From a virus, in the IMG/VR virus record IMGVR_UViG_3300025687_000227, positions 1 through 28,645 of that record: DNA of 28,645 bases; one strand, given 5' to 3'. Under the pieces are notes generated by a model. It worked only from the letters and a program-made list of their open reading frames with translations. It was not told the origin of the DNA and ran no database searches. Made by a program: the position numbers and the translations under genes. Below are positions 3,053-28,293 of the stretch, one piece after another (the stretch's first letter is position 1; every line of letters starts with the position of its first letter).

Positions 3053-4057
3053 ATGTTAGCTGATATCGTAGTAGGTTTGTCTTTTGGTGATGAAGGCAAA
3101 GGAAAAGTAACACATCACCTTTTGAAGAATGGAGATTACACGCATTGCATTCGCTTCAATGGCGGTTGCAATGCAGGTCACACCATTTACCACGAAGGCG
3201 TAAAGTTCGTAACGCATCATATTCCTGCGGGTGTATTCTTTGGTGTGCGGTCCATCATCGGTAATGGATGCGTTGTAAATATAGATCAGTTCAATCGAGA
3301 GATTCAAATGCTCCATCAGGGCGGGGTCAACACAGATGGACTAATCTTTATCGCAAACAATGCTCACATCATTACTGATGCGCATTTAGAAGAGGATGGT
3401 AAGGATACAACTATCGGAACTACAAAGCGAGGTAATGGTCCTGCTTATCGCGATAAGTATGATCGTCAAGGAACCTTGGCCTCAGAGGCTCTTGTGGGAA
3501 CTCCTTATCTTATTGATATGTATCGGGAACTTTACGAGACAGACGAAGAGGTTGTGATCCTCTGTGAGGGCGCACAAGGCTTTGGATTGGACATTGACTG
3601 GGGAGACTACCCTTATGTTACTTCAAGCCACTGTACGACCGCTGGGGCGCTTCTAAACGGCATCCCGCCGCAGGCTGTCCGAAGGGTTTACGGTATCACC
3701 AAGGCTTACGATACTTATGTAGGAGCAAAGAACTTTCACGGCGAAGGGAGAGTATTTGATTTGCTGCAAAGTTTAGGAAACGAATTTGGTGCGACAACTG
3801 GTCGTCCTCGTCAGTGTAACTGGCTTAATGTTCGGGATCTAAAGAAGGCAGTTGATATTAATGGTGTTACAGATGTGATTATCAACAAAGTAGATATTCT
3901 TCGAGAAGTTGGAGAGTGGAACTTGCGTTCTTCAGACAACAATGCTATTATGCTCAAGTTGGGTTCAGAAGTAGCTTGGAAGCAATACATCAGACGACTA
4001 CTCAACGACAACACAAATATTAATGTTGTCTTTTCAGAATCACCAGAAAGGATTTAA
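3053..4057 (+). CDS. purA: Compact adenylosuccinate synthetase family enzyme (PurA/PurZ superfamily)
   Basis: Predicted to couple GTP hydrolysis to joining IMP and aspartate, the first step from IMP to AMP. It is 334 residues, much shorter than bacterial PurA (about 430) and like archaeal PurA and phage PurZ. Motifs: G12-D13-E14-G-K-G-K P-loop with the catalytic Asp kept; GGCNAGHT with the catalytic His at 43 but Cys at 39 where E. coli has His; IGTTKRGNGPAY; EGAQGFGLDID; YPYVTSSHCTTAG; GNEFGATTGRPRQ, the aspartate/IMP loop in the archaeal-like GRPR form; and N278-K-V-D281 for guanine recognition, implying GTP use. It starts at ATG 3053 two bases after dnaE with a weak AGGA site. Phage PurZ enzymes (dGMP as substrate, 2-aminoadenine genomes) are described as lacking the catalytic Asp, so the retained Asp favours true IMP chemistry. 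A PurZ0-like activity cannot be excluded from sequence alone. Confidence 0.9.
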   Translation: MLADIVVGLSFGDEGKGKVTHHLLKNGDYTHCIRFNGGCNAGHTIYHEGVKFVTHHIPAGVFFGVRSIIGNGCVVNIDQFNREIQMLHQGGVNTDGLIFIANNAHIITDAHLEEDGKDTTIGTTKRGNGPAYRDKYDRQGTLASEALVGTPYLIDMYRELYETDEEVVILCEGAQGFGLDIDWGDYPYVTSSHCTTAGALLNGIPPQAVRRVYGITKAYDTYVGAKNFHGEGRVFDLLQSLGNEFGATTGRPRQCNWLNVRDLKKAVDINGVTDVIINKVDILREVGEWNLRSSDNNAIMLKLGSEVAWKQYIRRLLNDNTNINVVFSESPERI

Positions 4058-25165: not shown

Positions 25166-25428
25166 GAAACTTTATAAATTTTGTTCGCAACACTTTAATG
25201 TTCATTGGTTTCCTTATCGCTACAGCGTTGTATGTTACGATAGCAGCAGGTATGGCTACCATTGTTATCAACGACATTCAGTTGGATACTTATGTTACTT
25301 TGAGAACTGGCTTTGCGGCAGTTCTATGGATGATCCTTACCATCTGGGTGCCGATTATTCTATTTTGTGGGACAGGAAGAATCGATAGAAATCAAATAAT
25401 CCTTGACAGCGATAGCGAGGCGTGGTAG
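25162..25428 (+). CDS. Two-helix membrane protein, unknown
   Basis: 88 residues with two membrane segments, LMFIGFLIATALYVTIAAGM and AAVLWMILTIWVPIILFCG. Its last codons (IILDSDSEAW) contain the promoter of the following restriction enzyme gene, so coding and promoter overlap. It starts with an ATGA overlap. Confidence 0.65.
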   Translation: MRNFINFVRNTLMFIGFLIATALYVTIAAGMATIVINDIQLDTYVTLRTGFAAVLWMILTIWVPIILFCGTGRIDRNQIILDSDSEAW

Positions 25429-25431
25429 ACT
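25403..25431 (+). promoter_or_regulatory. Sigma70-type promoter of the R-M-like cassette
   Basis: TTGACA (25403-25408), 17 bp, TAGACT (25426-25431), followed by GTAGTCACAATAAGAGAAC. Two tRNA promoters share the same -10 and downstream bases. It lies inside the end of the previous gene and drives the endonuclease at 25462. Confidence 0.85.
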
Positions 25432-25461
25432 GTAGTCACAATAAGAGAACGGAGATAGAGT

Positions 25462-25983
25462 ATGCCAGGAGGTATTCAGCCAGGAACAGTCGCGACCGAT
25501 GAGGCGGCGCGCACACTTGATAAACATTGTAAGTCCCGCGCAGAGGTATTAAGGGAGTCACTGCTTCCGCGCTATAATGGACGCCTTACATCACAGGTAA
25601 AGTTGCGTCTAGATCAAATCCCAAACGGTAAGGGAGCCTGTCAGCCCGATGGTCATCTTTGGTTTTGGGATGGCGAGTTGATCGCCGTATTTGAAGCTAA
25701 AAAGCAGCAGGACAAGGGTAACGCCATTGAAAGATGGTATAAGAACAACTATATTTGTAGAAAAATAAGTCCTAATGTCAGTTATGTGACCTTCGCTGTT
25801 GGCGAGGGGGCATATGCAGACGGAACAATTGGACGTGCTCTTTCTCCAGCCCATGATTTTGGCTTTGATATTTATGAGCCGGGAGGTAATTCTTGTTTTA
25901 TGAACAAAAATGGCTTTACAGCAGAAGAGATTGAGTCTATTATGTTCCACACGATCAAGGAAAGGATTGAGGCATTATCATAA
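25462..25983 (+). CDS. EcoRI/MunI-like restriction endonuclease (PD-(D/E)xK)
   Basis: 173-residue PD-(D/E)xK nuclease. P62-D63 (CQPDGHL), then E78-A-K80 (VFEAKKQQ) form the catalytic core, followed by G86-N-A-I-E-R91 and KN at 94-95. EcoRI has the same arrangement (PD at 90-91, Glu111-Ala-Lys113, GNAIER at 140-145 with KN following), and GNAIER/GNAVER contacts the inner AATT of GAATTC and CAATTG in EcoRI and MunI. The Asp-to-Glu spacing of 15 matches what I recall for MunI. The loop between the core and GNAIER is much shorter than in EcoRI, so this is a compact relative; recognition of AATT is inferred. It ends where the methyltransferase begins (TAA then ATG), so they form an operon. The GGAGAT ribosome site is close to ATG 25462. 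Confidence 0.85.
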   Translation: MPGGIQPGTVATDEAARTLDKHCKSRAEVLRESLLPRYNGRLTSQVKLRLDQIPNGKGACQPDGHLWFWDGELIAVFEAKKQQDKGNAIERWYKNNYICRKISPNVSYVTFAVGEGAYADGTIGRALSPAHDFGFDIYEPGGNSCFMNKNGFTAEEIESIMFHTIKERIEALS

Positions 25984-27045
25984 ATGAAACCATTATTCAT
26001 GTGGGCAGGAGGTAAGACTTCTCTTATTAAAGAATATGAGAGTAGGAAACTTCTGCCTGAAACATTTGACACATACATTGAGCCGTTTCTAGGTGGCGGG
26101 GCAATGTTTATTTGGGCACATGAAAGGAACCCAAATGCCAACTTTGTTCTGAACGATAGGAACCCATACATCATGGGAATCTATAATGCGGTTAAGAACG
26201 ATTATGATGAGTTCTGTCGCGTTGTATTTGAGCATGAGAAGAAGTATTTATCTCTTTATCCGCCGAAAAAGGATCTAAGAGATAGTAATAACAAAAAGAT
26301 ATGGGTTGACCATCCTATTGGCTGTGCGAATAAGGAACTAGAGAAACAATATAAAGTAGGCCAGAATGTCAATTGGATAGATTTGTGGAATGAGAATCCG
26401 ATCTATCATGTGCGTCGTTCTTATTATTTCAAGACTAGACAAGAGTATCAGCAAACGCAAGATGACAGACTGAACACTTTTTATTCTGCTACTTTATATT
26501 TTCTAATGAAGACAGGATTCAATGGTGTCTGGCAAACGTATAAAGAGCGTATTCCTGGCTCTACAAAAACCAGAGACACAGGGTTGTTTCATACACCATG
26601 TGGCTTAATGAGGCATGAGGATTCTATATTTTCCAGTAAAAACGGAGACGGAAGAGAAGATTTGAAACTTTGGAATCAAGCTCTACAAAATGCTACACTT
26701 TTGAATGTAGACTTCATGGATACTTTGGATTATGCTCATGGAGAAGAAAATTGCTTTATCTTCATGGACCCGCCATATCGAGGATGTTTTACACAATATG
26801 AAGTAGATTTTGACGATAAACTACAACAAAGTGTGGTAGACTATCTAAACTGTGCAACGCATGGTGGTGCTTATGTGATGATGTCAAACCGTGATGTGGG
26901 CGACGGATTCTTTGAGCAGAGACAAGGTACTAATATTATTGAGACTTTTGATGTAACTTATACCGTTGGTCGAAGAAAGAAAGAAGACGACGGAACATAT
27001 AGTGCGAAGAAAGCCACAGAGATTTTAATGATTGGAAAAAAATAG
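25984..27045 (+). CDS. Dam-class (D12) DNA adenine-N6 methyltransferase
   Basis: 353 residues, alpha-class adenine methyltransferase. Motif I is FMWAGGKTSLI, the SAM site; YIEPFLGGGAMFIWAHERNP follows; the catalytic DPPY lies at 262-265 (IFMDPPYRG); and KKATEILMIGKK ends the protein. EcoDam, T4 Dam and M.EcoRV have this order. It has an inserted region near residues 80-150 (KYLSLYPPKKDL, HVRRSYYFKTRQEYQ) that may set specificity. It directly follows the EcoRI-like endonuclease gene, as in R-M pairs, although Dam-class enzymes usually target GATC or GATATC, not AATT. It could protect the phage or be an independent orphan enzyme. Confidence 0.92.
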   Translation: MKPLFMWAGGKTSLIKEYESRKLLPETFDTYIEPFLGGGAMFIWAHERNPNANFVLNDRNPYIMGIYNAVKNDYDEFCRVVFEHEKKYLSLYPPKKDLRDSNNKKIWVDHPIGCANKELEKQYKVGQNVNWIDLWNENPIYHVRRSYYFKTRQEYQQTQDDRLNTFYSATLYFLMKTGFNGVWQTYKERIPGSTKTRDTGLFHTPCGLMRHEDSIFSSKNGDGREDLKLWNQALQNATLLNVDFMDTLDYAHGEENCFIFMDPPYRGCFTQYEVDFDDKLQQSVVDYLNCATHGGAYVMMSNRDVGDGFFEQRQGTNIIETFDVTYTVGRRKKEDDGTYSAKKATEILMIGKK

Positions 27046-27074
27046 TTGACAAGCCCACCAGGGCATGATATAGT
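27046..27074 (+). promoter_or_regulatory. Sigma70-type promoter
   Basis: TTGACA (27046-27051), 17 bp, TATAGT (27069-27074), directly after the methyltransferase stop. The transcript would have a leader of about 90 bases before ATG 27170, including AAGGGGA at 27085 and AAAGGAGG before the gene. Confidence 0.85.
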
Positions 27075-27169: not shown

Positions 27170-28189
27170 ATGTCACGGCGAATTGTTGGAAAGGATATCA
27201 CACTCGACCCCAAATGGAAGGTGTACGGGAACTATCCATCTTATTCTTATACGATTGACCCACGAATTGTGAGCGCTCTTGGAGGCCAGCGTGATACTAG
27301 CGCTAAAACTTTAATCAAATACATTAAGGAATGTGAAGGCTTGGATTTGTCCATGAGCGATCCGATCACAATCGCTTACTTTCCGAAGGACTATACACCC
27401 GATCCAGAGACGAAAGACTTGCATTATTATGGATACTGCCCAGCAGTTGGAGAAAATCGTTGGATGGCTCTCTTGGATGGTGATCATCGTCGCCATTTGC
27501 ATATCATCTTTGATTTAAGCGAGATTCCATGCGCTTATGTTGCTGTAGATAACAAGGAGAAATACTCGGAAGCTTATGTTAAGCGAAACTCCAAGCTACG
27601 GAAGGGACAGAATGCAGAGGAAATCTTCGTCATGGAGTGTCTGAGTAATCTCCCAGAGGCTCTATCCACCGTACAGGACCTTATTACATGTAACCTACAT
27701 GTTGATGGTGGTAGTGGCCAGGGGTGCAAGCAGGGCGATGTGGGAGGCCCCTCGGTTAAGATCAGGGCTTTCAGAAAGGGAATTGCAAAGCTTGCAAAGC
27801 GAGGTTTTGGTATTAAGTATCTTAAGCTGGCATCTGAAATGATTCAGCAGGATTACCCGAACGATACAAAAATCCATGCCGATCTTCTTTTGGGACTAAG
27901 CATTTTCTTGTCGGAGTACGATAATCTTCCAAACGGTAAGACTGCCTGGACCCCGCCCATGCAAAAAGATTTTTCTGTGTGGTTTAAGAATCGCTCCATG
28001 AAGAGTCAAAATCAGTTGGCACAGACTTTGAGCGATGTTCCTGGGGCTGTAGTTAACTGGATTCCAGAGTCTGTTGCGCTCGGAATGGCAATGGAATACC
28101 GATGTGAAAACACAGGGGAGATTACCGTCAAGACAAAGCAGAATAAGATAAAGGAATCGGTTATCCAAAGTCTTATCAAGCGCAAGTAG
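27170..28189 (+). CDS. ParB/Srx-fold-like protein
   Basis: 339 residues. The N-terminal part has the ParB-type signature LLDGDHRRHLHIIF followed by a hydrophobic strand IPCAYVAVDNKE and EAYVKRNSKLRKGQNAEEIF, as in ParB/Srx domains of phage and plasmid proteins. A Gly-rich loop (HVDGGSGQGCKQGDVGGPSV) leads into helices. No C-terminal dimer motif of chromosomal ParB is visible. ParB-like proteins act in DNA segregation, as nucleases or as regulators; here the position next to an R-M pair suggests DNA or defence work, which is inference. AAAGGAGG is 8 bases upstream of ATG 27170. A hairpin follows the stop. Confidence 0.8.
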   Translation: MSRRIVGKDITLDPKWKVYGNYPSYSYTIDPRIVSALGGQRDTSAKTLIKYIKECEGLDLSMSDPITIAYFPKDYTPDPETKDLHYYGYCPAVGENRWMALLDGDHRRHLHIIFDLSEIPCAYVAVDNKEKYSEAYVKRNSKLRKGQNAEEIFVMECLSNLPEALSTVQDLITCNLHVDGGSGQGCKQGDVGGPSVKIRAFRKGIAKLAKRGFGIKYLKLASEMIQQDYPNDTKIHADLLLGLSIFLSEYDNLPNGKTAWTPPMQKDFSVWFKNRSMKSQNQLAQTLSDVPGAVVNWIPESVALGMAMEYRCENTGEITVKTKQNKIKESVIQSLIKRK

Positions 28190-28264: not shown

Positions 28265-28293
28265 TTGACAAGACAGACTGAGCGTGGTAGACT
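28265..28293 (+). promoter_or_regulatory. Sigma70-type promoter of tRNA-Lys
   Basis: TTGACA (28265-28270), 17 bp, TAGACT (28288-28293), then GTAGTCACGATGAGAGAAC. Same class as the promoter at 25403. The tRNA starts at 28313, so a leader of about 13 bases would be removed. Confidence 0.85.

Follow-up and report, generated by a model that had tools for sequence, protein, structure and literature searches.

A putative AATT-specific restriction-modification system of marine phages built from an EcoRI-like nuclease and a Dam-class methylase

Introduction

The locus described here raises the question of whether a small EcoRI-like nuclease and the Dam-class methylase encoded directly behind it form a restriction-modification (R-M) system of a phage and, if so, which DNA sequence the two proteins recognise. 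The recognition sites of EcoRI (GAATTC) and MunI (CAATTG) share the core AATT, and EcoRI-type and MunI-type enzymes, D12 methylases and virus-encoded R-M systems are all already known.

The two genes are located on a phage fragment of 28.6 kb (IMG/VR virus record IMGVR_UViG_3300025687_000227, positions 1 to 28,645), the whole of which is referred to below as the window. The phage is described as marine, and the window carries phage genes for replication and nucleotides (DNA polymerase III alpha, PurA-like, dUTPase, ThyX), as well as GroEL, and ends with three tRNA genes. An earlier note on this DNA had pointed to the motifs PD (residues 62-63), EAK (78-80) and GNAIER (86-91) in a 173-residue open reading frame at 25462, and to a gap-free next gene coding for an adenine methylase with a DPPY motif; both are present as claimed. 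The nuclease and the D12 methylase are hereafter abbreviated as R and M, respectively.

Results and Discussion

Organization of the locus

The features of the locus are as follows.

25403..25431, + strand: candidate sigma-70-like promoter, TTGACA - 17 - TAGACT, with TG before the second hexamer, 5' of the nuclease gene (consensus scan)
25462..25983, + strand: predicted compact EcoRI-fold PD-(D/E)XK endonuclease (R), 173 aa (sequence family, profile search, predicted structure)
25645-25650, + strand: R motif PD (P62-D63)
25693-25701, + strand: R motif ExK (E78-A-K80)
25717-25734, + strand: R motif GNAIER (G86-R91)
25984..27045, + strand: D12 (Dam-class) N6-adenine DNA methyltransferase (M), 353 aa (Pfam, TIGRFAM, motifs)
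M residues 7-11, + strand: motif X, WAGGK
26533-26535, + strand: M Gln184, at the position of Dam Arg124
26767-26778, + strand: M DPPY motif, residues 262-265
27046..27074, + strand: second candidate sigma-70-like promoter, TTGACA - 17 - TATAGT (consensus scan)
27170..28189, + strand: 339-aa open reading frame with a DGDHRRHL stretch, no database relative found

The start codon of M begins at the base directly after the stop codon of R. The form of the promoter-like site preceding the nuclease gene was also found by the consensus scan before the tRNA genes at 28265 and 28421. The second candidate promoter begins with the base that follows the methylase stop codon and lies 5' of the 339-aa open reading frame.

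The endonuclease

The product of the nuclease gene belongs to phrog_2400 (4.7e-61), a phage family of unknown function. Named homologues come from 65 records of Synechococcus phages, almost all of them S-RIM2 isolates (59% identity), and a further 76 loci were detected in IMG/VR. In an alignment of 56 distinct homologues, P62, D63, E78 and K80 are unchanged throughout, and G86, N87, A88, E90 and R91 are likewise invariant, the form GNAxERW being common to the set. Since PD, ExK and GNAxER are all invariant in this alignment and the adjacency of a methylase is conserved as well, the motifs are not a matter of chance.

Searched as a single sequence against PDB and Pfam, R gave no match, and a profile built from four sequences missed EcoRI, so that a deeper profile was needed. 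When a profile of 51 homologues was compared with 177,635 PDB sequences, five EcoRI entries came first, albeit weakly (E 0.03-0.2), and the profile alignment places PD and GNAIER of the two proteins in register. The AlphaFold2 model of R, calculated from 49 sequences, reached a pLDDT of 90 and a pTM of 0.86. In structural alignments of this model with VIA-align, the highest scores went to five EcoRI entries (Z 14.8-15.2, rmsd 2.5-2.6 over 152-153 residues), the best of them being 1qc9 with a Z of 15.2; the next entry after EcoRI scored 9.2 and MunI 7.8. Foldseek alone, applied to the same model, returned no significant EcoRI match and did not rank EcoRI first. The compact EcoRI-like fold proposed in the earlier note is thus supported by the structure prediction and the profile search, and R is taken to be a compact EcoRI-fold endonuclease that is predicted to be active.

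R is under purifying selection: its dN/dS is 0.05-0.24, with a value of 0.10 in the lineage that carries R only (see below). No bacterial relative of R was found in scans of GTDB genomes with shallow and deep patterns.

The methyltransferase

M matches both Pfam PF02086 (2.3e-23) and TIGR00571, the Dam family (1.7e-36), above the curated cut-offs, and its DPPY and motif X are shared with Dam and DpnM. GATC is contacted in EcoDam by K9, which reads the guanine of the first pair, and by R124 at the fourth base pair (PMC10073500). Unlike in Dam and DpnM, these two residues are replaced in the phage methylases by Met/Ile and Gln. The position of R124 is occupied by Gln in all 111 distinct phage methylases of the family, and that of K9 by Met, Ile, Val or rarely Arg; the window protein has Met6 and Gln184 and therefore neither of the residues by which Dam reads GATC. 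Because both guanine readers are lost, GATC specificity of M is unlikely, and a Gln that would read adenine is consistent with an AATT target. The usual orphan D12 methylase of cyanophages is of another type than the M family, and the methylase of S-RIM8, with its Dam-like FNGLTR form, keeps Arg at the position of R124.

Relatives of M with the same Gln were also found on Klebsiella plasmids, with no annotated restriction enzyme beside them. One of these (NZ_CP084495.1, 2465-3376 of locus L236) is annotated as Dam family; since it has FNGIWQ and a Met before WAGGK, as in the phage family, it may not recognise GATC.

Conservation of the gene pair

Among 54 distinct R loci, M lies directly 3' of R in 36, most often with a 4-nt overlap; one gene separates R and M in 12, M is missing from 4, and 2 are truncated at the end of the contig. 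The pairing of R and M recurs in dozens of IMG/VR phages and is a widespread phage system, not one unique to the window. Encoded together in this way, R and M have the gene arrangement of a type II R-M system. The earlier note had regarded the combination of an EcoRI/MunI-type enzyme with a Dam-class methylase as an oddity: the pairing is real and conserved, and in marine phages it is a recurrent arrangement.

In the examples tested, the intervening gene belongs to phrog_2558 (weakly ParB-like), phrog_5778 or phrog_33124. The R/M junction is a hot spot, occupied by three gene families in different phages (L001:5615-6670, L035:3228-4163 and L010:1522-2562), and it is polymorphic even among S-RIM2 isolates, the extra gene being found in HQ317291 and absent from KX349240. 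The AlphaFold2 model of the ParB-like junction gene product is poor (pLDDT 59).

Relatives of the window M were found in 80 further loci, and 34 of these have a different GNAxER nuclease, of 160-213 aa, directly upstream. This nuclease is a MunI homologue (profile match to 1d02, E 7e-10), so one methylase family adjoins both EcoRI-type and MunI-type nucleases. EcoRI-type and MunI-type nucleases would then be exchanging around a single methylase family in ocean phages.

AATT in the window and in R-bearing records

The window contains 39 copies of AATT, 134 being expected, which corresponds to a 3.4-fold depletion (ratio 0.29, Poisson 4e-22). It was stated in the earlier note that GAATTC and CAATTG occur in the window, which is correct (GAATTC at 1743, 2897 and 9498; CAATTG at 25826 and 26370), but its conclusion that the phage does not avoid the suspected sites fails for the AATT core. 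One must bear in mind that GTAC (0.28), GGCC (0.34) and CATG (0.35) reach similarly low ratios, so that the site could not be recognised from the window by itself.

The median observed/expected ratio of AATT is 0.31 in 15 R-bearing records as compared with 0.90 in 8 R-free ones (collapsed P 6e-5), the records being not fully independent of each other. Of the 136 tetranucleotides, AATT and AATA are the most shifted between the two groups, the ratio of AATA depending on that of AATT. R-free cyanophages of Synechococcus have AATT at 0.70-0.95. Among records with both R and M the ratio spans 0.09 to 0.87, the highest value being that of record G009, and three R+M phages with a more divergent R, measured after this comparison, are near normal (0.83-0.96).

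Other palindromes are also unevenly used. In most marine cyanomyoviruses (S-PM2, Syn1, Syn19, S-RSM4, S-WAM1, P-SSM2 and others), the 60 kb sampled contain no CCGG at all; AGCT and GGCC are strongly depleted in these phages too, independently of R. A strong depletion of GATC is found in S-RIM8, S-M1 and QB2.

Phages with the nuclease only

Three related IMG/VR contigs (73.9, 111.9 and 90.0 kb) encode R with no D12 or N6_N4 methylase within the contig sequence, as searched with PF02086 and PF01555; these contigs are fragments, so a methylase may lie elsewhere in the phages. They contain no AATT at all, 233, 339 and 281 copies being expected, i.e. 0 versus 853 expected in 276 kb. The R-only phages include the IMG/VR records IMGVR_UViG_3300033273_000208 and 3300021960_000030. 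The three contigs do not represent three independent events, because two of them, G002 and G003, may be near-identical; the R proteins of G001 and G002 are distinct but 95% identical (dN/dS 0.10). In the two R-only contigs that were scanned for all 256 tetranucleotides, only AATT and CCGG are absent, and CCGG is also missing from most R-free control cyanophages. Two other R-only fragments (23.5 and 10.9 kb), which are short and whose M may lie elsewhere, have AATT at 0.73-0.75.

Among named phages, the nearest relative of the R-only contigs is S-WAM1, which has neither R nor a MunI-type nuclease and in which AATT stands at 0.85 of expectation. Within the stretch that can be aligned between S-WAM1 and an R-only phage, the former has 27 AATT and the latter none. 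The same loss is seen in synonymous codon choice: for asparagine before a codon starting with T, the AAT/AAC counts, taken from mechanically defined reading frames, are 0/367 in the R-only phage and 72/158 in S-WAM1, with 32/256 in S-RIM2 and 5/46 in the window. Since AATT is lost with all its flanks, the site is probably AATT itself and not GAATTC or CAATTG. The total loss of one tetranucleotide from nuclease-only phages would be a striking natural record of the specificity of a restriction enzyme.

Taken together, the EcoRI-type and MunI-type partners common to the M family, the erasure of AATT and the Gln of M make an AATT-specific system most likely. The guess of the earlier note that specificity would centre on AATT is supported by the R-only contigs, the Gln substitution, the MunI-type partners and the codon choice. 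In this way phrog_2400 gains a function assignment together with a DNA target predicted from genome composition.

Proposed function of the system

The explanation that we regard as probable is that R and M constitute a type II R-M system of the phage, specific for AATT, whose nuclease attacks host DNA, rival DNA or both. The two proteins may be expressed from one promoter. R would read AATT through its GNAIER element and cut with the PD/ExK site, while M, which has Met and Gln in place of the guanine-reading residues K9 and R124 of Dam, would most likely methylate the adenine in AATT and shield the phage's own DNA from R. During infection, unmodified AATT in the host chromosome could be cut by R, serving nucleotide recycling or host shut-off, and/or the AATT sites of co-infecting phage DNA could be cut. 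The R-only phages would be protected by the loss of all AATT sites, and their existence suggests that the nuclease is worth keeping without an antidote.

It could be argued that the avoidance of AATT is forced by AATT restriction in the hosts, R being a coincidental passenger and M an anti-restriction methylase. Hosts may indeed shape the use of palindromes, as CCGG is absent from most cyanophages with or without R. However, the R-free Synechococcus cyanophages retain AATT, among them S-WAM1, the closest named phage to those with R only. Selection on R is purifying, and the same methylase family adjoins nucleases of two distinct families, all of which makes this an unlikely account. It is still more improbable that M is a regulatory, Dam-like enzyme and R is inactive, or that the two are unrelated neighbours: orphan D12 methylases of another type are carried by many cyanophages, but the invariant catalytic residues, the R dN/dS of about 0.1, the conserved adjacency and the erasure of AATT in R-only contigs all speak against it.

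A third possibility, that of superinfection exclusion or a selfish module, is a variant of the probable explanation and differs from it in target only: M would mark the phage, R would destroy unmarked DNA of rival phages, and the host chromosome would be incidental. Such a role was proposed for the R-M system of Marseillevirus, which spares host DNA and may act on competitors (PMC7253447), and it agrees with the patchy distribution of the R/M pair among cyanomyoviruses and with the variable R-M junction of S-RIM2 isolates. The R-only phages, whose own sequence lacks the site, are just as compatible with a weapon that cuts DNA in general, and the evidence fits host and rival alike as target. 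Exclusion of rivals as the main purpose is considered possible, though rather doubtful.

Returning to the AATT-specific R-M system, we lean slightly towards a broader proposal, namely that marine phages use AATT-directed EcoRI/MunI-type nucleases offensively, either with a D12 methylase as antidote or antidote-free after erasure of every AATT. If this is true, an orphan restriction enzyme became a self-tolerant DNA weapon. The destruction of host or rival DNA by cyanophages becomes testable in the cultured S-RIM2, S-BM1 and S-CREM2.

Comparison with known systems

With EcoRI (1eri/1qc9) the window R shares the fold over 153 residues and the same order of PD, ExK and GNAxER, but EcoRI is 276-277 aa long as compared with the 173 aa of the phage-encoded R, which differs further in its D12-class partner and in its predicted site, AATT instead of GAATTC. 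GNAxER and the AATT core are features of MunI (1d02) as well, whose homologues are neighbours of this phage methylase family at 34 loci, although the window R is closer to EcoRI (Z 15.2 versus 7.8).

The Synechococcus phages S-RIM2 and S-BM1 carry a homologous R (59% identity) together with a D12 methylase; unlike the window, S-RIM2 HQ317291 has the ParB-like gene between them. S-CREM2 encodes an R homologue, gp11, annotated by the depositors as "restriction endonuclease EcoRI", and a DNA adenine methylase, gp8, but there two genes separate R and M. In the passages retrieved from the S-CREM2 paper the methylase is placed under nucleotide metabolism and the R-M pair is not mentioned.

Virus-encoded R and M are likewise present in Chlorella viruses and Marseillevirus (PMC7253447, PMC4081073). 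The chlorovirus enzymes contribute to the degradation of host DNA, whereas in Marseillevirus host DNA is not degraded (PMC7253447). These are giant viruses of eukaryotes, whereas the system of the window belongs to tailed bacteriophages and is directed, as predicted, at AATT. No account of an R-M system in cyanophages came up in a literature search of partial coverage. What appears to be new is the widespread phage system, the assignment of AATT, the exchange of nucleases next to a common methylase, and the form that lacks an antidote and has lost every site.

Other features of the window

The 339-aa open reading frame at 27170-28189 is possibly ParB-like and an uncertain member of the R-M system. 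It shows only a faint similarity (hhalign probability 4%) to the ParB-like genes that separate R from M in other phages, and it could not be shown to be the same third component as the ParB-like junction gene.

A short PurA-like protein of 334 aa is encoded at 3053-4057 and is assigned by PHROGs to a PurZ family (phrog_1211). The presence of 2-aminoadenine in the phage DNA, to which this match would point, was dropped as a reading because the protein scores better as PurA and keeps the GDEGKG motif. Finally, two ClpP-like proteases and a GroEL chaperonin are encoded on the same phage fragment (4523-5086, 10014-10664 and 12104-13678).
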